From positions 1 to 39,925 of IMG/VR virus record IMGVR_UViG_3300032050_000321: a DNA stretch of 39,925 nucleotides; one strand, 5' to 3'. The translations under genes and the position numbers were made by a program. Below, one piece after another: positions 20,401 through 39,758 of the stretch (position 1 is its first letter; every line of letters begins with the position of its first letter). The DNA is from a virus. Below the pieces are notes generated by a model. It worked only from the letters and a program-made list of their open reading frames with translations. It did no database searches and was not told where the DNA came from.

Positions 20401-20472
20401 CGCCGCAGAAAAGAAAGGGCATCAGGGGGTTGCGGCGATTAACCCCTTTTCGTTCCGTCGAACTAGATGCCC
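20401..20472 (-). promoter_or_regulatory. Structured leader before the primase gene with competing stems
   Basis: In the 90-base gap before the primase start, leftward RNA can form an outer stem GGGCATC/GATGCCC (20466-20472 with 20417-20423) enclosing an inner stem GGGGTT/AACCCC (20441-20446 with 20426-20431). The loop of the inner hairpin carries CGCCGCA (20437-20431), which is perfectly complementary to TGCGGCG at 20407-20401, one base before CAAGGG of the primase ribosome binding site. The second pairing would be a pseudoknot or an alternative fold next to the start site. A leader that controls translation is inferred. The T-rich stretch after the outer stem (TTTCTTTTC) also allows a weak terminator reading. 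Confidence 0.5.
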
Positions 20473-20478
20473 GTGTTA

Positions 20479-31060: not shown

Positions 31061-31103
31061 CCAAAAGAAAACTAACATTTCCGTGTCGCACGGATTTGTT
31101 AGT
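31061..31103 (-). terminator. Palindromic element copy 1 acting as a likely terminator
   Basis: On the leftward strand, arms ACTAACA and TGTTAGT (31103-31097 with 31077-31071) and inner arms CCGTG/CACGG form a hairpin with a 3-base loop. TTTCTTTT follows directly. This fits a rho-independent terminator between the 31190-32038 gene and the promoter at 31006. The hairpin itself is a copy of the dispersed 29-bp element found at 33770, 36920 and 37975. The remaining 31104-31189 holds further complementary arms (GTGGGA/TCCCAC and ACCTG/CAGGT) but no gene that I can support. Confidence 0.6.
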
Positions 31104-31189
31104 CGGAAAGGGTGTGGGATTAGCAGATTAACCTGTCCCACGCAGGTCGATTGGAGTGCTCCGCATCTGCAATACGGTCAAACAAGAAA

Positions 31190-32038
31190 TTATTCTATCA
31201 CTTTAGTTTCACCTGCTACGATGAAATAGATTGTTTCTTTCTTGGCGCCGTCGTCGCTCTCATACTTAACACCGATGTCGGCAGCGAACTGATTCATGTC
31301 TAGCAACTTGAGCATGGTAAATTTTTCCTGTGTGTACTGATTCAACTCATAGGTGCTTTGGTGTTTGCTAGTCGTATCAGGGTTGCCTATATGCGCACAC
31401 AGTAATGTCTCGTCTTGCATAACTCTAATGACATAACCGTTTTTGGTTTCAAAGTGAGCAAGCACATTGCAGGCAATCTCATAGTTTTCTCCCTTCCGTA
31501 TTGTGTCATTACTATTCATTGAGTCGAGGATCCGCTTTGGCACAGGGGGGTTGTTAGCCATGACTACATCGACAAAGTAATTAGCAAGTTCTAGGTAATT
31601 AACACTGATTGAGTTCCGATAGTCCCTCTCAACTTTTTCGTGCATAGACTCTACTGTGTACTTGACATTTGCGATTAGACTCTTGCCCAACTCTGCCAGA
31701 GTCTTCTTCGCAAACTGTTCTATAACAGTACGCGCTGCTACCTTAGCGTCTTTGCAATACTTCCTGTTGCGCTCACCCCGTTGCTTCTTAATAGTATGTG
31801 CGTCGATGGCATACCATCTTTCGGTCATTCCCTTAGTAGGACTGAATCGGTCAAAGCATGCCCGAATCTCACCCACCACCTGACCATCTTGCCAAGCACG
31901 AACAGAGTCGGCGTAGTGAATGTCCCCATACCTGATCACCTCGTACTCTAGAAGTGGACGTTTAGCATAGACCAACTCAAGTACCTCTTTGAGTCGGGGT
32001 GCGAGGGTTGCGCCTTGGCGCAGGTTTTTAATCTTCAT
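31190..32038 (-). CDS. Early-operon protein of unknown function, 282 residues
   Basis: The start at 32038 has GGAG six bases upstream, giving 282 residues; an in-frame start at 32050 lacks support. The N-terminus is mixed alpha/beta (VLELVYAKRPLLEYEVIRYG, then YADSVRAWQDGQVVGEIRAC). The middle is basic and helical (KKQRGERNRKYCKDAKVAAR), followed by helices around EKVERDYRNSISVNYLEL. The end is beta-rich (YVIRVMQDETLLCAHIGNP). No catalytic motif is seen. It is the last gene of the AAA+/VWA operon, 12 bases after the DUF3150-like gene. Confidence 0.75.
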   Translation of the reverse strand: MKIKNLRQGATLAPRLKEVLELVYAKRPLLEYEVIRYGDIHYADSVRAWQDGQVVGEIRACFDRFSPTKGMTERWYAIDAHTIKKQRGERNRKYCKDAKVAARTVIEQFAKKTLAELGKSLIANVKYTVESMHEKVERDYRNSISVNYLELANYFVDVVMANNPPVPKRILDSMNSNDTIRKGENYEIACNVLAHFETKNGYVIRVMQDETLLCAHIGNPDTTSKHQSTYELNQYTQEKFTMLKLLDMNQFAADIGVKYESDDGAKKETIYFIVAGETKVIE

Positions 32039-32050
32039 AGTTTTCTCCAA

Positions 32051-32914
32051 TCAGAAATTAAATTTAGATAGTATTGAATCAACATTGGCTTTGACATCAC
32101 GACGCACCACTTCGCTATCACGCAAGTCGGTTGCCTCAAGCCCTGTGAATGTCTGTGACATCAGAACCCGCGCTCGTTCCAACTCAGGATCTTTGGTCAC
32201 ATTGAGTACCTTGAGCATGTCGATCAACTCGTGTGCGTTATCCACCAAGGAGTCGCGGAATATTTTCTTCTTCGTCTCCTGCCCACTATCCTCAAGCCTT
32301 TCGCTAACATGGGATAAACATTCGTGCAGGCGAGACCACGCTTCCTTCATAGCCCCCTTCACTCGCTCTTCGATGGCGTTGTTGCATTGCGTCTCCAACT
32401 CATTGCGTGCCTGCTGTCCTATGTTGATACGCCAATCCCCTGCTGTCGGCACAGGCGAGAATGTGTAGCGGAACCGAAACTTACCGGCAATATCTTCCGC
32501 TTCGGGATACTCACTTCTGTCGAATAGCGTGCCCAATTGGAAAGCAGCCGCGTCTACTAAGTTAGGATAAGAAGTCAAGAAGTCTTGGACTAGCGCGTTG
32601 TATTCTTGCTCCAACTCACTAAGCCGTTCCTTGTACCTCAAGAAGTTCTCCACAGGTAGTAGTCGTAGTCCGTTGTCCGACCAAGGCAAAGTATTTACGT
32701 TATGCCAAGCCCGAGCATTGGCTGCAAACTTCACGATGTTGTCCAACTTCTGTGTACCGGCAAGCAGGTTCTTGTTGTAGTTACCCGCGCGAGACTTGGC
32801 CCCGCTAGTCGTATCTACTTCTTGAGAAACACGCTTGTCTAACTTGCGGGCAGTCCAGCAACTAATTGATAACTCTACAAGCATGGCACTTGTTTCGATT
32901 CCGAATGAACTCAT
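32051..32914 (-). CDS. DUF3150-like protein
   Basis: A protein of 287 residues. The opening ETSAMLVELSISCWTARKLD resembles DUF3150 proteins, which in many phages and some bacteria are encoded beside a MoxR/CobS-type ATPase and a VWA protein. Here the same partners lie just upstream. The centre reads FLRYKERLSELEQEYNALVQ, then FRFRYTFSPVPTAGDWRIN. The C-terminal half is helical (AIEERVKGAMKEAWSRLHECLSHVSERLED in sense). It probably works with the ATPase and VWA proteins as an adaptor or substrate; no activity is known. It overlaps the 53-residue gene by four bases. The family call is by resemblance and context. Confidence 0.55.
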   Translation of the reverse strand: MSSFGIETSAMLVELSISCWTARKLDKRVSQEVDTTSGAKSRAGNYNKNLLAGTQKLDNIVKFAANARAWHNVNTLPWSDNGLRLLPVENFLRYKERLSELEQEYNALVQDFLTSYPNLVDAAAFQLGTLFDRSEYPEAEDIAGKFRFRYTFSPVPTAGDWRINIGQQARNELETQCNNAIEERVKGAMKEAWSRLHECLSHVSERLEDSGQETKKKIFRDSLVDNAHELIDMLKVLNVTKDPELERARVLMSQTFTGLEATDLRDSEVVRRDVKANVDSILSKFNF

Positions 32915-33072
32915 GATTTATTCCTTTCTTTCATTTCTTTAGAAGCAAGATATTCAATGACCTGTGTGATAGACGGAGTGAACCCCACCTGCTTGGCAAA
33001 GTCCCCCTGCAAAAGACGCAGGGTTTCATATGCCTCAACGCTCACCCGTACTGATTTGCTTTCCTCTTTCAT
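32911..33072 (-). CDS. Small ribbon-helix-helix-like protein
   Basis: The start at 33072 makes an ATGA overlap with the stop of the VWA gene. A longer frame to 33129 runs through that gene and is a shadow. The 53-residue product reads ESKSVRVSVEAYETLRLLQG, then FTPSITQVIEYLASKEMKER. A short basic strand followed by two helices is typical of ribbon-helix-helix DNA-binding proteins of the Arc/MetJ class. It may be an autoregulator of this operon. Its stop overlaps the DUF3150-like gene start. Confidence 0.65.
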   Translation of the reverse strand: MKEESKSVRVSVEAYETLRLLQGDFAKQVGFTPSITQVIEYLASKEMKERNKS

Positions 33073-34298
33073 AGATGCACCGCCTTTCCATACTTGTGTG
33101 TAAACCGTTTGTTGTCTTTGATGCACCACAACAAAGGGGCGCTGACCTTAGACCAATCACCCTCCCCATCGTAGAAGCACCCGTCTGTTACCACCACTAC
33201 GCAGTCGGGATTGATCTGCTTGTCACCCATGAACTTGATTACACAGGAGGGATCAGTCCCTCCACCACCTCGTGGTTTCGTAGAATCAGTTAGGGTTTGA
33301 ACCGCCCCGTCTTCGTAAGTCTCGTGCCCCGCCACATGGCTGTCCCAATACATCAACTCAACCTTCTGTGGTGTGACCTCTTCGCAGATGGACTTGATCT
33401 CAGATAAGAACTCAGACAATACCTCGCCACCTATCGAACCTGAAGTATCCACCGCAACCGCGATGCACTCCATGCGTTGAGAGATAGCAGTCGGCATATA
33501 GATACCCGACCCAAGCAGTCGCTTGTTGAACCGACGCCACGATGAGTCGTCGTGTCCCTTGGCAATCTGCTTGACAAAGTCCCGTAGTACCTCGCGCCAA
33601 TCAATCTTAGGATTAAGCAATTCTTGAATATCACGAGATACACCACCGTTCATCTTGCCTGCAAGCAAGGCGCCTTGACGCAATGCGTTGTCGATCTCCT
33701 TGGCAATCTGCTCGGCTTCCTTCGCATCCATCTGCCCCGCCTCTTCCCATAGATGCTCATCGAACCCTTTAACATTTCCGTGCGGTGCGGATTTGTTACC
33801 ACCTTCAGACTTATGTGAGCCACCTGAGCCACCCCTACCATCTTCCTCCTTCTCAAGAATTAGGAATACTTGATGCGCATCCATACCACGGAACCGTTCA
33901 TCTATCAGCCCCATGACATTGCCTTCCTCGTCAGTCGGCATACGCACCACCTCCTGATCAGGGTCGTGATCTTGGATCTGCAAGTTAATGACATAGTCAC
34001 AGGCAGCGTTGGCTAAGCCCTTGTTCTTCTTAAACAACTTCTCCCATGTGGTGAGATGCCGATACGCCTTGTGCATAGCCTCATGCAAGATAAGAAAGCC
34101 CAACTGCTTATCATCTAAGCGATCAACAAACGCACGCCCGTAGAACACATTGATACCGTCAGTCGCGGCAGTCGGCATTGATTCCTCAACCGTCACCTTG
34201 CCCACCATGAACAGACCTGAGAACAAACAAAACTTCTTATGACGCATGAGAGCCACATGGACTTTCTCGATGCGTTGCTCGGCAGTTAATTTAGCCAT
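33069..34298 (-). CDS. Metallopeptidase-like/VWA protein (DUF2201-like), partner of the MoxR-type ATPase
   Basis: A protein of 409 residues with two domains. The N-terminal half has a zincin motif, LILHEAMHKAYRH (H72 to H76), followed by NAACDYVINLQI with D101 as a possible third ligand, as in DUF2201 N-terminal domains. The C-terminal half is a von Willebrand A domain with the metal-ion site DTSGS (D284, S286, S288) and a later VVVTDGCFYDG. The linker at 152-180 is Gly/Ser-rich and contains NKSAPHGNVK, encoded by a copy of the 29-bp palindrome. Related VWA proteins work with MoxR-type AAA+ ATPases to remodel or metallate targets. It overlaps the genes on both sides by eight and four bases. 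Confidence 0.85.
   Translation of the reverse strand: MAKLTAEQRIEKVHVALMRHKKFCLFSGLFMVGKVTVEESMPTAATDGINVFYGRAFVDRLDDKQLGFLILHEAMHKAYRHLTTWEKLFKKNKGLANAACDYVINLQIQDHDPDQEVVRMPTDEEGNVMGLIDERFRGMDAHQVFLILEKEEDGRGGSGGSHKSEGGNKSAPHGNVKGFDEHLWEEAGQMDAKEAEQIAKEIDNALRQGALLAGKMNGGVSRDIQELLNPKIDWREVLRDFVKQIAKGHDDSSWRRFNKRLLGSGIYMPTAISQRMECIAVAVDTSGSIGGEVLSEFLSEIKSICEEVTPQKVELMYWDSHVAGHETYEDGAVQTLTDSTKPRGGGGTDPSCVIKFMGDKQINPDCVVVVTDGCFYDGEGDWSKVSAPLLWCIKDNKRFTHKYGKAVHL
33770..33798 (-). repeat. Dispersed palindromic element copy 2, in frame inside the VWA gene
   Basis: On the leftward strand it runs from TAACAAATCCGC to CACGGAAATGTTA. The outer arms TAACA/TGTTA are perfect and the inner part is an imperfect inverted repeat. 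It encodes NKSAPHGNV within the Gly/Ser-rich linker of the VWA protein. It differs from copy 3 at only one position inside the element. Confidence 0.85.
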
Positions 34299-34662
34299 GA
34301 TTTTCTTCCTCTTTAAGTTTTGCTACGTCTTTAGTTTTTTCTGCTTCAATCCACTTATTTAACTTGTACGTTGTCTCCAAAAAAGTATCGCGCAAAGATT
34401 CTGCTTCACTCATATCACTACAAGAATACTTGTAGTTTTCAATGTAGTAATCAACTACATCTACAAACTTTGCGCTAAGCAATCCACAACTGTCGTATTC
34501 AAAATGTTTGCAATCCATATCATACCCTTGAAGATATCCGGGTACATGAACCCAAACTTCTGCCCCTCCTGACATAACTACAAATTCCGTCCTAAATAAT
34601 GGGCGACCATCTTCTTCTGATTTCGGCAGTTCACACTTTTCCGAGTCTACTAATTCAGTCAT
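34291..34662 (-). CDS. Acidic protein of unknown function, 123 residues
   Basis: The product begins MTELVDSEKCELPKSEEDGR, then a beta-rich part (FRTEFVVMSGGAEVWVHVPG), a cysteine-containing stretch (DMDCKHFEYDSCGLL) and a helical, charged end (LNKWIEAEKTKDVAKLKEEE). It is AT-rich relative to the ATPase gene. It lies between the ATPase and VWA genes, overlapping the VWA gene by eight bases and the 61-residue gene by one (TAATG). It may be an adaptor for the complex. No family is recognised. Confidence 0.65.
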   Translation of the reverse strand: MTELVDSEKCELPKSEEDGRPLFRTEFVVMSGGAEVWVHVPGYLQGYDMDCKHFEYDSCGLLSAKFVDVVDYYIENYKYSCSDMSEAESLRDTFLETTYKLNKWIEAEKTKDVAKLKEEENHG

Positions 34663-34847
34663 TATGTTTCCTTTTCAAATAAAATGTTTAACGCAGGGTC
34701 AAGTTCGATGCATGTACTTGCCTTGACATACCGCATCCATATAGCATGCTCGTGAATTGCTCGTATATGCCAAATGCTTTCGTCACCGTAATGATCCTTG
34801 CGCAATAGTATCCACACCTTGTCTTCATACAACACATAGCCCACCAT
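34662..34847 (-). CDS. Small protein of unknown function, 61 residues
   Basis: The product, MVGYVLYEDKVWILLRKDHY then IWHIRAIHEHAIWMRYVKAS, is rich in aromatic residues and histidine and looks like a small beta-rich domain. It starts two bases after the ATPase stop and ends in a TAATG overlap with the next gene. Tight packing in the operon supports coding. No function can be stated. Confidence 0.65.
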   Translation of the reverse strand: MVGYVLYEDKVWILLRKDHYGDESIWHIRAIHEHAIWMRYVKASTCIELDPALNILFEKET

Positions 34848-34849
34848 GA

Positions 34850-35938
34850 TTAGAACAAGTACTGATTCTCACGCATCCATGTAACAAACGATGCGCTTGT
34901 CATCACCAATGACTTCTTCTCGTCAGATTTCATAGCAGACAGACAGAACACAGACTGCAACTCCTTCGGCGTGCGCTTCATATACTCGAACCACTTGCCG
35001 ATACTTGCTCTATCTATTCTCTGCAATGCGTTGAACGCTAAGATGCAAAGTGCTGCTGGAGATGAGGGTACGGGTGCTTCGTTGGGCTTGTTCACAATCT
35101 GCTCCCATGTTGGTAGCGAGTCAGCCACCTCCAAGTACGCCAACATATCTCTCGCTGCTGCTGCGCCAATCGTACCTTCGAGTGCTGTCTTTAGAGAATT
35201 GTGTGACATGTTGAGACGCTTCTTAACGATGTTGCTTGACTTGACCAAAGTGCGTGGTGATACACAAGAATCCTGTGGCTTCTTCGGATGAAAGATGTAC
35301 GGGTTCTCTGCCTGCCCACCGTCATAGCAAGACGCCAATACTTGCGGGTACTCTTTGACAAAGGTAATTACCTCGGGCGCCACATTGTTCTGCACCGCAT
35401 ACATACCCCATGAGTCAGCATCAATCGTACCGTCGGCGTTGATACCGGCATGTGGTTTCTTGACCCTGATCTTGGTAATGCGACCAATCGTATGTGCCTT
35501 GATCGTATCGCCAACCCCGTCGGTTGTCAGGTTACCCGCGATCATCACGATAGAGTCCTCGTGAAGTTTCACCCCACCGATGCGACGCTCGTGGATTAGT
35601 GGATGCAACATGTTCTGCACCGCCTGAGATGCCTTGGTGAACTCGTCGATGAAGATGACAAGTGGCTCGCCCGTATGCAGTCCCCAATGATCGTTAAGAT
35701 AGAAATGCGTAGTCTTAGTGTCATGGTTTGGTACCGGTATACCCACATCGCCCAACTCTGTGTTCGGCGCATCAATATACACACCCTTGTGACCCGTCAT
35801 TGCCACGACGGTGTCGTGCATCGCGGTCTTACCAATCCCCGGCTCGCCTACAAGGTAGCAAGTGTTGGTCGTACCAATTGCAACTACGATCTCTGCTGCT
35901 TCGGTTAGGGTAACGCTACTATTTAGATTGACTTCCAT
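34850..35938 (-). CDS. MoxR/CobS-like AAA+ ATPase
   Basis: A protein of 362 residues. Walker A is LVGEPGIGKT (K37) and Walker B is LVIFIDEFTKA (D98, E99). APNTELGDVGIPVPN has the shape of the MoxR/CobS insertion before the active site, and SIVMIAGNLTTDGVGD is the sensor-1 region. The C-terminal helical domain includes RTLVKSSNIVKKRLNMS. Phage members are often labelled cobS after cobaltochelatase, but no cobalamin genes are present here, so that name is avoided. It should power remodelling of a target recruited by the VWA protein encoded downstream. AGAGGA lies before the ATG. Confidence 0.9.
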   Translation of the reverse strand: MEVNLNSSVTLTEAAEIVVAIGTTNTCYLVGEPGIGKTAMHDTVVAMTGHKGVYIDAPNTELGDVGIPVPNHDTKTTHFYLNDHWGLHTGEPLVIFIDEFTKASQAVQNMLHPLIHERRIGGVKLHEDSIVMIAGNLTTDGVGDTIKAHTIGRITKIRVKKPHAGINADGTIDADSWGMYAVQNNVAPEVITFVKEYPQVLASCYDGGQAENPYIFHPKKPQDSCVSPRTLVKSSNIVKKRLNMSHNSLKTALEGTIGAAAARDMLAYLEVADSLPTWEQIVNKPNEAPVPSSPAALCILAFNALQRIDRASIGKWFEYMKRTPKELQSVFCLSAMKSDEKKSLVMTSASFVTWMRENQYLF

Positions 35939-35955
35939 TTTTATTTCCTCTTTGG

Positions 35956-36903
35956 TTAATTAAAATACTTACGGTTTGAATTGCTTACTGCTACTCCAAT
36001 TGGTACTTCTACTTTATTAAAAACCTCCGTGTTATAAACATACTTAATTACCTCATCAAAGTAGGCAAGCATGGTCGAACCTATCTCCACTTGCTCTTCA
36101 GAGAAATACCCCCATGACTTAATAAATGCATTCAACCTACTGTTGTGATTCAGGCACGACACACCCAACTGCACAAAGTAATGGTAAAACTTCTCCAAGT
36201 CCTCGGGATCTTGCGCCTGCTTGACTGCTTGCAAGAATACTTTGCATATATCGTTTCTGCGAGTTACTCTGTACCCGCTTTGACTAGGCAGATAGACTTT
36301 AAGCACCATCTTCCCGTAAGTCTGTTGTGTTTCTACCAACTCCTCGGGCAACTGTTGGGCTACGGCGTTGACCTCCTCATCTTTTATGCCTGTAAGTATT
36401 TTGCCCATGTTCTTAACGTATTCTAGGAAAGCACCAAACTCTTTGCGCTTAGACTTCATAGCGACCCTGTTCAACTTATACGCATGCGTTCGCACAGGGT
36501 TCATCACCTCACCGTCTTTGATAGCGATGGGAGTCTCTGAGTCTGCGAACGGATACCACCCCTCTTTGCCTATGACTTGTAGGTAGGTTGTCCCTCGGTC
36601 ATACTTGGTTTTGCAAGGCGATACCGCATCAATAAACTGCCTCGTGCTGACAGCGTCGTACCTGCACAGAGATATAGAGACTTCCCCGTTGGGAGACCAC
36701 ACCACTACGTGCGACCCGTACAAGGTAAGGGACACAGCACCGGTCTCTGCGTCGTGACTGATTTGGCAGTAGTTATACCGTCGGCTACCCAATGGGCGCA
36801 ATCCCTTGTCCCCGCCTGACCGGTACGGCATTACCTCGTCGTGGTACTCCTTTGCCTCTGCGTAGGTAAAGAACCTCGGCAGGTTTGCACTATTTACATT
36901 CAT
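35956..36903 (-). CDS. Conserved-looking phage protein of unknown function, 315 residues
   Basis: The product opens LPRFFTYAEAKEYHDEVMPY, then a beta-rich central part (AVSLTLYGSHVVVWSPNGEV and YLQVIGKEGWYPFADS). A helical region (KRKEFGAFLEYVKNMGKIL) follows, then KVYLPSQSGYRVTRRNDICK and FYHYFVQLGVSCLNHNS. It has no recognisable catalytic motif. It lies directly upstream of the AAA+ ATPase gene with an ATGA overlap to the small membrane-protein gene before it. A role as substrate or adaptor of the ATPase is conceivable but unproven. The family is not recognised. Confidence 0.75.
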   Translation of the reverse strand: MNVNSANLPRFFTYAEAKEYHDEVMPYRSGGDKGLRPLGSRRYNYCQISHDAETGAVSLTLYGSHVVVWSPNGEVSISLCRYDAVSTRQFIDAVSPCKTKYDRGTTYLQVIGKEGWYPFADSETPIAIKDGEVMNPVRTHAYKLNRVAMKSKRKEFGAFLEYVKNMGKILTGIKDEEVNAVAQQLPEELVETQQTYGKMVLKVYLPSQSGYRVTRRNDICKVFLQAVKQAQDPEDLEKFYHYFVQLGVSCLNHNSRLNAFIKSWGYFSEEQVEIGSTMLAYFDEVIKYVYNTEVFNKVEVPIGVAVSNSNRKYFN

Positions 36904-37082
36904 TTCTTTCCTCCCTTGTTAACATTTCCGTGCGGTGCGGGTTTGTTATCTTGTTTACCCTCTTTCTTCATGTCACGCCATGCCATGATGCCAATACCCA
37001 CCACGACAATTACTACGAACCACACCAACTCTTGTGCTGCTTGCGCAGCCATGCCTGACTCAACCCACCAATTAGTTTTCAT
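36900..37082 (-). CDS. Small single-span membrane protein whose tail carries the palindromic element
   Basis: A protein of 60 residues. The membrane helix is LVWFVVIVVVGIGIMAW (about 19-35), followed by a basic stretch RDMKKEGKQD. The C-terminal tail NKPAPHGNVNKGGKK contains NKPAPHGNV, encoded by palindromic element copy 3. The element therefore lengthens a cytoplasmic tail without breaking the frame. The gene has ATGA overlaps with both neighbours. It might anchor an early complex at the membrane or act against the host envelope; both are guesses. Confidence 0.7.
   Translation of the reverse strand: MKTNWWVESGMAAQAAQELVWFVVIVVVGIGIMAWRDMKKEGKQDNKPAPHGNVNKGGKK
36920..36948 (-). repeat. Dispersed palindromic element copy 3, in frame at the 3' end of the membrane-protein gene
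   Basis: On the leftward strand it runs from TAACAAACCCGC to CACGGAAATGTTA, with perfect TAACA/TGTTA ends. It encodes NKPAPHGNV in the tail of the 60-residue membrane protein. It has the same orientation and frame as copy 2 and differs from it by one base inside the element. Confidence 0.85.
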
Positions 37083-37195
37083 TTGTCATCTCCTCTTCCA
37101 ATAAACATACACGCCAAGAAATATACGCAGAACGCTATGGCGATCAGACCAAGTGCCCCGTTCAAGGCACGCAAAAACTCAGCGATCTCGCTCAT
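37079..37195 (-). CDS. Short membrane protein, 38 residues
   Basis: The sequence encodes MSEIAEFLRALNGALGLIAI then AFCVYFLACMFIGRGDDK. One hydrophobic helix spans about residues 12-32, flanked by an acidic start and a basic-acidic end. Both ends are joined to neighbours by ATGA overlaps (37195-37192 and 37082-37079), and AGAGGAG inside its 3' end serves the next gene. Together with the following 60-residue membrane protein it forms a pair of small early membrane proteins. The function is unknown. Confidence 0.7.
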   Translation of the reverse strand: MSEIAEFLRALNGALGLIAIAFCVYFLACMFIGRGDDK

Positions 37196-37386
37196 AGGTC
37201 AAAGTCTCCCCCGATAGCCACCATCTCGTCGATATAGTGCTGATACAGCGTGGCAAGGCGTACCTCTTCCTTGGTCGGCTTAAAGGCTTTGGCGTCGGCG
37301 TCAAAGTCGGCACTTACCTTGTAGTAGACCGTTGCTGCCTTGAGCATGAAGAAAAACGCCTCTTGATGGTTCATCTCTTGGCTCAT
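37192..37386 (-). CDS. Small protein of unknown function, 64 residues
   Basis: The start at 37386 makes an ATGA overlap with the previous gene; a longer frame to 37539 is a shadow of that gene. The product contains MNHQEAFFFMLKAATVYYKV, an acidic loop, and KEEVRLATLYQHYIDEMVA. It looks like two helices. It is part of a run of very small genes at the head of the early operon. No family is recognised. Confidence 0.7.
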   Translation of the reverse strand: MSQEMNHQEAFFFMLKAATVYYKVSADFDADAKAFKPTKEEVRLATLYQHYIDEMVAIGGDFDL

Positions 37387-37742
37387 ATTGCAGGCTCCTC
37401 GTAGCGATATTGAATGGCGTAACCCTCGTCTTTTAAGACTTTCAGGGTTGATTTGGTCAGCGTCTTGCCACCTTGGATTCTCAAGAATAGGTTGGCGGTT
37501 GGGTTGGCAGGATAGAAGTGATCCGTGCCGTAGTTGCACTTGACCATCACTCGGACAATCCCGTTCTCTGCGGGTTTGTCTTTGCCCACCTGATTCTCGC
37601 GAATGGCGTGAACCTTATCGTTTAAGGTAATGCCGTTGGTTGGCTTGGGTACAAGGTTTGGTTTCACGATTTGGTCTACAAGTCGTTGGTGCTCCATCAT
37701 GTGTACTAAGACTTGGGTTAGGTTCTCTTGGCTCATGGTCAT
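37383..37742 (-). CDS. Early protein of unknown function, 119 residues
   Basis: It begins MTMSQENLTQVLVHMMEHQR, with a basic middle (IVKPNLVPKPTNGITLNDKV) and a beta-rich end (GIVRVMVKCNYGTDHFYP, then LFLRIQGGKTLTKSTLKVL). The start overlaps the zinc-ribbon gene stop (ATGA at 37742-37739) and the stop overlaps the next start. A small nucleic-acid-binding or host-takeover protein is possible. No motif proves this. Confidence 0.7.
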   Translation of the reverse strand: MTMSQENLTQVLVHMMEHQRLVDQIVKPNLVPKPTNGITLNDKVHAIRENQVGKDKPAENGIVRVMVKCNYGTDHFYPANPTANLFLRIQGGKTLTKSTLKVLKDEGYAIQYRYEEPAI

Positions 37743-38020
37743 GCTCCTCTTGGTTGTTTTGGGTTGGTGTTGAACAGGTCGGCGGGGTTGTAGATGTGCT
37801 GATACGCTCCCTTGTTGTAGGCGATGGCTACGGTATGTTTTACCGGCTCGGTGATGTCAAGGTCTTGCTGACAGGGCAGGCAAGTGGTCTTACCTAGTCT
37901 GCTTCGCTTGAATGGGATAGCCTTGCCACAACACCGGCAAGGTTTGGGGGGCAGAGTCGCAAAGGGGTCTTTACTAACAAATCCGTGCGACGCGGAAATG
38001 TTACGGGTTGCGGTGGGCAT
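37739..38020 (-). CDS. Zinc-ribbon-like protein, first gene of the early operon
   Basis: ATG at 38020 has GGAG seven bases upstream; a TTG at 38032 is less likely. The product has 93 residues. Two cysteine pairs, PCRCCGKAIPF and TTCLPCQQDL, about 17 residues apart, form a zinc-ribbon pattern that usually binds DNA, RNA or protein. Residues 7-15 (NISASHGFV) are encoded by palindromic element copy 4, in the opposite orientation to copies 2 and 3. The gene lies about 57 bases from the predicted start of the strong promoter at 38084-38112, so it should be made very early. Confidence 0.75.
   Translation of the reverse strand: MPTATRNISASHGFVSKDPFATLPPKPCRCCGKAIPFKRSRLGKTTCLPCQQDLDITEPVKHTVAIAYNKGAYQHIYNPADLFNTNPKQPRGA
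37975..38003 (+). repeat. Dispersed palindromic element copy 4, inverted, in frame near the start of the zinc-ribbon gene
   Basis: On the + strand it runs from TAACAAATCCGTG to GCGGAAATGTTA, so relative to its gene it is inverted compared with copies 2 and 3. It encodes NISASHGFV six codons after the start. It differs from copy 1 at one internal base. The ends TAACA/TGTTA are perfect. Confidence 0.85.
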
Positions 38021-38043: not shown

Positions 38044-38425
38044 GAACAATAGGTTGCGGACAAACTACGACTGATGAACCTATATTATAGCATGGTAAGT
38101 TTACAATGTCAAGTTCTAAATGGGTATTTGGGGGGATAATGTTCTGTATTGTTCGTAATGTTCGGGAATGTGGAAAATTTAGGAACAATATGAAATGGCT
38201 AGGGCAAGCCGTTTGAGGTGTATTGTTCTAATGTTCTTAATGTTCTTAAAAAAGTATAGCCCCCCCGAGAGTTATCCTATTCTCATGAGATTCTGCGTGG
38301 AGCCTCGGGAAGGCGTGCTGCAAAACTTTGGGAACCATGTTTTTGCCAAAAATGGCAGAACAATTGAACATTGCTTTATAATCAAAGACTTAGGCGTAGA
38401 ACAATAATCTAGAACATTAAGAACA
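38044..38425. repeat. Array of 13 TGTTC/GAACA words, candidate origin or regulator-binding region
   Basis: TGTTC occurs at 38140, 38150, 38159, 38224, 38232 and 38241. GAACA occurs at 38044, 38083-plus-100 (38183), 38358, 38366, 38399, 38412 and 38421. Within clusters the words are 8-10 bases apart, about one helical turn, with the wider consensus TAATGTTCT. Left clusters mostly face one way and right clusters the other. Chance would give about one copy in this length. The stretch 38021-38584 holds no gene I can support. It also holds the early promoter, two 16-bp direct repeats and a terminator. Confidence 0.7.
38084..38112 (-). promoter_or_regulatory. Perfect-consensus sigma-70 promoter of the early leftward operon
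   Basis: Reading leftward, TTGACA (38112-38107), exactly 17 bases, then TATAAT (38089-38084). TGC directly before the -10 box adds an extended -10 element. This is the best promoter in the window. The predicted RNA start is near 38077, giving a leader of about 57 bases before the zinc-ribbon gene. Three TGTTC words lie 28-56 bases upstream of the -35 box and one lies in the leader, so a regulator could act here. Confidence 0.9.
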
Positions 38426-38584: not shown

Positions 38585-38731
38585 TTAAATCGCGAAGAAT
38601 ATCGCACGAAGGGCTTGGTAGCGTGACGCGCCAAGATTGCGCAAATGCCAATAGGCGCGCTTTTTGCCATGCGACTTTATGTACCAGCACAGAGTGGCAG
38701 GGTTAGATTCAAAACTCAGGGGAATATTCAT
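38585..38731 (-). CDS. Short basic aromatic protein, 48 residues
   Basis: The sequence encodes MNIPLSFESNPATLCWYIKS then HGKKRAYWHLRNLGASRYQA and LRAIFFAI. AAGGTG lies six bases before the ATG. The second half, rich in Arg, Lys and aromatic residues, looks like a helix-turn-helix-like or RNA/DNA-binding helix pair. It follows the 235-residue gene by 52 bases, with a hairpin between them, and precedes a strong terminator. The ribosome site and a protein-like sequence support a gene; the function is unknown. Confidence 0.6.
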   Translation of the reverse strand: MNIPLSFESNPATLCWYIKSHGKKRAYWHLRNLGASRYQALRAIFFAI

Positions 38732-38783: not shown

Positions 38784-39491
38784 TTACGACTTAGCGGGAA
38801 CGAACTGCTTCAACGCGACAATCGCATCGGCAAGAACCGTCTCATTCTCGGTCTTGCAGACCTCGCTCACCAAATCGCGCAGACCTTTCTTGAGAACCGA
38901 CAACCGACCCTCAGCCTCTTTCTTGGTGTCCTTCTCGATCACCTCGATAGATTTGTCGAGAGCCTTAGCCTCAGCGATAGCCTCGGGAGTCGCTGTCCGA
39001 TACAGAGCCAACTGCGCCTCTTTCAACTCTTCGACGCTCCGACCATTCGCAACCGCGACGGCTTTCGCCTTCTCAGCCTCGCGACGCTTGGCTTTCTCAA
39101 CGGACTCAGCCTTTTCAGACTTGGGCTTGACCAACTGATACATCTTGAGGAACGGCACGACAATCTGAAGCCACGAACTGTTCGCCGAATTCGACGGGTC
39201 GATCACCTTCTTCGCTTGCGCATCGCACCGCAGGACATAAGCCGCCTCGTAACGCTTGCGACCATCTTCCCACAGGTCATAGGTCAGAACCCCCGCCGAA
39301 AACGCGGCTACAAACGCGTCTTTGATTTGGTCAAGACCCTTAGCCTGATCACCGGCAGCATCGCACAACAACTCAGCACCGCCCTGAAGCAGACTAACCT
39401 GAAACTCAGACCAACTTGGCGCAGACTGAACTGCGTCACCGTTCACTACCGCACCGACTGCGTCAGCTACTACCGTTTTCGTTTTACTCAT
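38784..39491 (-). CDS. Ala/Lys-rich early protein of unknown function, 235 residues
   Basis: ATG at 39491 has GGAG six bases upstream. In-frame ATGs at 39497 and 39542 lack this. The N-terminal 115 residues form a helical domain (SWSEFQVSLLQGGAELLCDA, YDLWEDGRKRYEAAYVLRCD). After SSWLQIVVPFLKMYQLVK comes a long charged coiled coil (KSEKAESVEKAKRREAEKAK, then further helices) to the end. The gene looks more GC-rich with C/G-ending codons than its neighbours, which may reflect high expression or a different origin. It has its own candidate promoter, operator-like palindrome and downstream hairpin, so it is probably a separately controlled early gene. Confidence 0.8.
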   Translation of the reverse strand: MSKTKTVVADAVGAVVNGDAVQSAPSWSEFQVSLLQGGAELLCDAAGDQAKGLDQIKDAFVAAFSAGVLTYDLWEDGRKRYEAAYVLRCDAQAKKVIDPSNSANSSWLQIVVPFLKMYQLVKPKSEKAESVEKAKRREAEKAKAVAVANGRSVEELKEAQLALYRTATPEAIAEAKALDKSIEVIEKDTKKEAEGRLSVLKKGLRDLVSEVCKTENETVLADAIVALKQFVPAKS

Positions 39492-39508
39492 TTTCATCTC
39501 CAATAAAC

Positions 39509-39539
39509 CGGACAAACCTAGATGATCTAGGAATGTCCG
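39509..39539. promoter_or_regulatory. 31-bp near-perfect palindrome in the leader of the 235-residue gene
   Basis: Arms CGGACAAACCTAGAT (39509-39523) and ATCTAGGAATGTCCG (39525-39539) are complementary at 13 of 15 positions around a single G. It lies 17 bases before the ATG and between the start codon and the candidate -10 element. As DNA it has the form of a dimeric repressor operator. As RNA it would make a long hairpin just before the ribosome site. Either would control the downstream gene. Confidence 0.6.
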
Positions 39540-39581
39540 CAATGGTCGCGCTGATCATTCGCCCCGCATCACCATGGACAC

Positions 39582-39590
39582 ATAATACCA
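39582..39590 (-). promoter_or_regulatory. Candidate extended -10 promoter for the 38784-39491 gene
   Basis: Reading leftward, TGG followed by TATTAT (39587-39582) forms an extended -10 element with five of six matches to TATAAT. No good -35 box is present at 17 bases. The predicted RNA start would be near 39575, about 85 bases before the ATG, placing the palindrome at 39509-39539 in the leader. Confidence 0.4.
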
Positions 39591-39625
39591 CAATCAGCGA
39601 CATGGTGTTATTTTTTCGTGAGGAA

Positions 39626-39678
39626 CCACGCCGAGCGCAGGTAGCCACGCCGAGCGCAGGTAGCCACGCCGAGCGCAG
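39626..39678. repeat. Tandem 19-bp repeats, 2.8 copies
   Basis: The unit CCACGCCGAGCGCAGGTAG occurs at 39626-39644 and 39645-39663 without change, and its first 15 bases again at 39664-39678. It lies upstream of the candidate promoter at 39582. It may bind a regulator or be a slippage product. The repeats touch each other, so this is not a CRISPR array. Confidence 0.85.
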
Positions 39679-39758
39679 ACACGCCATTCGCAAGAATCAA
39701 ACGCCAAAAACAAAAATCGAATCGACTACCGTCATATCAATATCTCCCCGATAGTTTG

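Follow-up and report, generated by a model that had tools for sequence, protein, structure and literature searches.

Fixed 29-bp dyads in the early operon of an uncultivated virus and its relatives resemble dispersed operators and change type genome-wide

Dispersed palindromic operators are familiar from KorB/ParB-type systems, in which sites spread over a plasmid replicon are read by one protein. A comparable layout in phages is that of the stoperators of Cluster A mycobacteriophages, the targets of the L5 gp71 repressor, which are 13-bp asymmetric sites mostly present in one orientation and number up to about 30 per genome; the repressor that binds them is monomeric, has two domains and belongs to temperate phages (PMC6550527, PMC9283540). 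In a stoperator system the bound repressor terminates transcription elongation, and the phage carries an integrase or parABS. The DNA analysed here is a 39.9-kb virus record (IMGVR_UViG_3300032050_000321, 1 to 39,925; hereafter the window). As with stoperators, it and its relatives contain multiple dispersed sites within and between genes, sharing one motif per genome. In contrast to stoperators, these sites are 29-bp dyads, occur five to eight times per genome and are restricted to the early operon, and instead of an asymmetric 13-bp site with a preferred orientation we find an AA/TT asymmetry occurring in both orientations. While the stoperator motif diverges along with its binding protein, the corresponding correlation found here (r=0.86 for the first early gene, gene 1) is driven by one contrast and makes gene 1 a candidate reader only, whose product, furthermore, belongs to no known family. 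As judged from the sequence, the dispersed operator-like system resembles stoperators in layout but falls outside their site definition. In contrast to KorB/ParB systems, no ParA/ParB was noticed; reading and partial scans of the window and of G008, the largest relative checked (a 61.7-kb contig from L191), revealed neither a recognisable integrase nor parABS in these possibly incomplete contigs.

The early gene set of the window, comprising a DUF2201 metallopeptidase/VWA-like protein, an AAA ATPase, a DUF3150 protein and a DNA polymerase, is common to its uncultivated relatives. In this region an earlier note had described four copies of a 29-bp palindrome with paired ends and a paired core. 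All four exist and are far beyond chance, as shuffled windows contain none and TAACA-N19-TGTTA is observed four times in the window versus 0.05 expected. Three of them lie exactly where they had been placed, while the remaining one was one base off (its true position being 31073-31101). The outer five pairs and the TCCG/CGGA core are indeed present, but two A.A (or T.T) mismatches interrupt the palindrome between them, and in the copy at 36920 the core pairing is off by one letter. Moreover, the list was incomplete, since two further members are found at 37552-37580 and 39509-39539. The window thus holds six sites, designated S1 to S6, all on the minus strand and none outside 31-39.6 kb. S1 (39509..39539) is a related 31-bp dyad, CGGACATTCCTAGATCATCTAGGTTTGTCCG, which follows the same plan in other letters (CGGACA..CCTAG..CTAGG..TGTCCG, type D) and is situated in the 5' leader just upstream of gene 1, while the close relatives L001, L002 and L003 possess a type-A dyad at this position. 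Gene 1 (38784..39494, minus strand) encodes a 235-aa all-helical protein; a longer start would lie at 39542. Upstream of S1 lies a promoter-like site on the same strand (39582..39611, ATAACA-18-TATTAT with an extended -10 TG). Just upstream of this early promoter a 19-bp unit, CCACGCCGAGCGCAGGTAG, is repeated head-to-tail in three copies (39626-39682), and similar GGCGTGGC-rich runs occupy the matching place in relatives. S2 (37975..38003), a type-A dyad in the start of a 97-aa DksA/TraR zinc-finger-like gene, is the inverted copy and encodes NISASHGFV; a sigma-70-type promoter of perfect consensus (38084..38112, minus strand, TTGACA-17-TATAAT) is located upstream of it. S3 (37552..37580), which is absent from the earlier note, is a diverged copy, AGACAAACCCGCAGAGAACGGGATTGTCC, within a 119-aa gene; its coding strand reads AGACAAACCCG..CGGGATTGTCC, and the peptide is DKPAENGIV. 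S4 (36920..36948) and S5 (33770..33798) are type-A dyads in the tail of a 60-aa gene (NKPAPHGNV) and in the linker of the DUF2201 gene (NKSAPHGNV), respectively; the peptides of S2, S4 and S5 are those already reported. S6 (31071..31103), correctly described before as lying between genes, is a 33-bp dyad with extended arms; it is the only site with a T-rich run behind it on the coding strand and may double as a terminator. Elsewhere in the window, an int-alpA RNA (Rfam RF02996, 47 bits) is present at 20403-20473 on the minus strand, between an 81-aa HTH gene and a DUF927 gene, and recurs at the matching place in G008 (L194 1987-2057, plus strand, 43 bits).

No near relative of the window was found among isolate phages, while L001 and L002 are 98-99.9% identical to it over most of the early region. 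Relatives contain five to eight dyads of 29 bp each in the early operon at places matching S1-S6, with S1, S2, S3, S5 and S6 present in every relative covering them. The ACA-to-TGT distance amounts to exactly 25 nt in each genome, and the central spacer varies. At loci whose DUF2201 proteins are 77-92% identical, the dyad occupies the same linker position in different letters (TAACA..CCG, GGACA..CCG or GGACA..CCTAG); at S5, only 15 of 29 bases match between B and D1 genomes, within flanks which are 95 and 97% identical. In G008, GAACA..CCG..TGTTC occurs eight times, twice in degenerate form, always inside the same 9 kb and nowhere else in the contig. Apart from two mixed exceptions, each genome uses a single type at all its sites, namely TAACA/CCG, GGACA/CCG, GGACA/CCTAG or GAACA/CCG. 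Across 14 specificity positions, sites of one genome differ by 11.7%, compared to 54.3% for the same site across types, and none of 5000 permutations reproduced this genome-wide uniformity; in D1, S2 and S5 are even identical. A looser scan for GACA..CCG..TGTC returned mostly chance matches. C and E genomes (C_G002 and G008) have one additional site, S4b, located between the ATPase gene and the gene of a 315-aa homologue, whereas in A, B and D genomes this position is empty with a near-clean junction. The mixed exceptions are L030, with B-type S2-S4 and D-type S5-S6, and the window itself, in which gene 1 and S1 are D-type and S2-S6 A-type. This switch coincides with a junction at 38586, whose left side is 99.95% identical to L001 and whose other side is closer to D-type relatives, which marks the window, on the evidence of these identities, as a recent recombinant with mismatched parts or else as an assembly chimera.

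The in-gene sites are all read in one frame, and the earlier note had regarded them as a mobile palindrome inserted in frame, similar to the Rickettsia palindromic elements (RPE). Like these, the palindromes lie inside genes, in one reading frame and at places seemingly tolerant of extra residues. This part of the resemblance holds; mobility does not, since all relatives of the clade have a dyad at the same places, its letters being replaced in situ, and only one gain or loss, that of S4b, is seen. Nor did the search of host genomes suggested at that time produce a host with repeated copies, and a pattern scan of genome contigs for a host or mobile origin yielded single, differently spaced matches alone. 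A mobile or gene-converting element of the RPE/REP kind that spreads among sites could draw on the common reading frame, on the identity of S2 and S5 in D1 and on S4b, the sole mobility-like sign. Yet orthologous places are fixed in all relatives, late genes and hosts contain no copies, spacers differ between copies and the type changes genome-wide, so that we consider such an element highly improbable and conclude from the comparison of relatives that the palindromes are not mobile. Among relatives the encoded peptide varies with the DNA (NKSAPHGNV, DKSAEHGNV, DNPRPSRNV, DNPSPSRNV, DKTAPHGNV). The outcome named beforehand as speaking for a protein motif, a constant peptide over diverged DNA, is thus the reverse of what orthologues reveal. 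Because the peptide changes while the dyad is kept, selection acts on the DNA and not on the peptide, which supports the protein-binding site likewise envisaged in the earlier note. Exceedingly unlikely, in our judgement, is that the sites are recombination joints guiding module exchange: the window and L001 do diverge from S1 outward, but the other end of the exchange, at 38586, is not a site, the remaining sites are located within single conserved genes, and joints of this kind do not predict a genome-wide type. RNA hairpins in the early mRNA, serving in processing, in attenuation or as target of an RNA-binding protein, would account for inverted repeats with strong covariation and for S6, a hairpin with a T-rich tail. 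Among 50 distinct sites, positions 2, 3, 4, 10 and 11 are paired in every row, and sliding the partner half-site abolishes the pairing signal. While positions 3 and 4 are invariant, double changes are seen at positions 2, 10 and 11 in 14, 16 and 16 rows, respectively, and neither a one-sided state nor a G-T pair occurs there. In each half, and whichever strand is read, about 95% of the letters at positions 6-7 are A or T, and those of the central spacer are free to vary. A structured RNA would be expected to keep its pairs via G-U intermediates and to possess a strand-specific loop; here the changed pairs lack such intermediates, the sense strand shows the A/T mismatches as AA and as TT alike, the loop letters are free and no Rfam family matches at the sites, making hairpins improbable. 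N4-type hairpin promoters, for their part, go together with an encoded virion RNA polymerase, and the large virion protein matches DarB-like/LPD39 families, its match to a virion-RNAP family being weak and partial. Paired changes free of G-T intermediates, together with the strand indifference of the A/T positions, favour a double-stranded DNA site composed of two half-sites, (T/G)(A/G)ACA-WW-N-C(C/T)(G/A), which oppose each other at constant spacing; an RNA hairpin accounts for these data less well than a symmetric DNA-binding protein does.

The dyads are probably read by the product of gene 1, our candidate. We compared type distances of S2-S6, leaving out S1, with the distances of each early gene in seven genomes by a Mantel test. 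Gene 1 follows the site type (r=0.86, p=0.006), in contrast to 13 other early genes (r from -0.31 to 0.20); its correlation rests on the contrast of CCTAG versus CCG and disappears when only A, B, C and E are compared (r 0.03-0.20). The CCTAG (D) type occurs in two backbones, A-like in G004 and B-like in G001 (ATPase 99% identical in either case), and in both it co-segregates with a gene 1 of the same subfamily, the two versions being 63% identical to each other and 36-40% to those of A and B genomes. Gene 1 was found in no isolate phage or plasmid searched, has no consistent Pfam or PHROG family and gave no match in a sequence-profile search against the PDB. AlphaFold2 models suggest a helical bundle at moderate confidence (pTM below 0.5), for which Foldseek returned no significant match and VIA-align 2 helical-bundle-level matches alone. 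It is conceivable, if unlikely, that the sites are operators as described but read by a different phage protein, be it the DksA-like 97-aa protein, a winged-helix protein or one encoded outside the contigs. No DNA-binding domain is recognisable in the model or sequence of gene 1, weak tracking of the site type by the 97-aa and 119-aa genes reaches r=0.69 in some subsets, both the window and L030 are of mixed type, and small HTH and winged-helix proteins are encoded in the window as well. Against this, none of the other early genes shared by all seven genomes, or by nearly all of them, tracks the site type. The 81-aa HTH protein was rejected as specificity determinant, as an A and a D genome have it at 96% identity.

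In our preferred explanation, which we consider rather probable, the palindromes serve as dispersed, operator-like sites in double-stranded DNA for a symmetric phage protein, most likely the gene 1 product. This reader would be at least dimeric and specific for its own genome's version of the site. S1 is located about 35-70 bp downstream of the putative promoter of gene 1 and S2 about 75-105 bp downstream of the perfect-consensus promoter, S3-S6 following further down the same operon, within genes or between them. Building up early, the gene 1 protein would bind S1 and S2 and throttle initiation, while on the internal sites it would form roadblocks to elongating RNA polymerase; the early operon would thereby be shut off.

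More distant relatives of the operon, whose DUF2201 protein is 45-48% identical, are devoid of the 29-bp dyad. Four of them (L040, L038, L037 and L039) contain a second dyad family, CTAACAWTGTTAG, in 10-18 copies per contig concentrated in the early region; in one 66.6-kb contig, 17 of 18 copies fall within 11 kb, and in both L040 and L038 two copies are situated upstream of the first gene. The first early gene of this clade encodes an orphan of about 170-190 aa with the motif NPSNAWKMVKKY; through this gene a further contig with the same CTAACAWTGTTAG dyads (L198) was found. Another relative has nine copies of GTAAC-N4-GTTAC. The cultured Rhizobium phage RHph_TM3_14A (L200, MN988472.1 1-50000) has the early-gene set in common with the window (ATPase, metallopeptidase, PolI, VRR-NUC, SNF2) and bears, in its first 50 kb, 31 TTACC-N4..7-GGTAA dyads in and between genes, 19 of them inside genes. 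In contrast to the window, its dyads also occur in late genes, the motif differs and the first early protein is not detectably related; likewise, gene 1 and the first early proteins of the other dyad clades showed no significant similarity when their profiles were compared. No dispersed dyads were seen in the first 50 kb of Pseudomonas phage KPP25. On the tentative reading given below, several independent dyad vocabularies, including that of a cultured Rhizobium phage, would suggest that such control is widespread in the phage supergroup.

Palindromes and one orphan gene changing together point to an undescribed gene-control system. A tentative reading, to which we give somewhat less than even credence, is that the early operon is silenced or paced via 29-bp dyads dispersed in coding sequence by an early protein representing a new DNA-binding family, protein and sites switching specificity together. 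If true, control of the early operon would be specific to the phage type, and dispersed-operator control would exist in phages without recognised lysogeny genes. The sites would be written into coding sequence, with proteins bending to the DNA code, and the orphan first-early-gene family would gain a testable function. Five site types versus one gene would then constitute a natural co-evolution series in which to follow a regulator and some six sites through a joint change of specificity.
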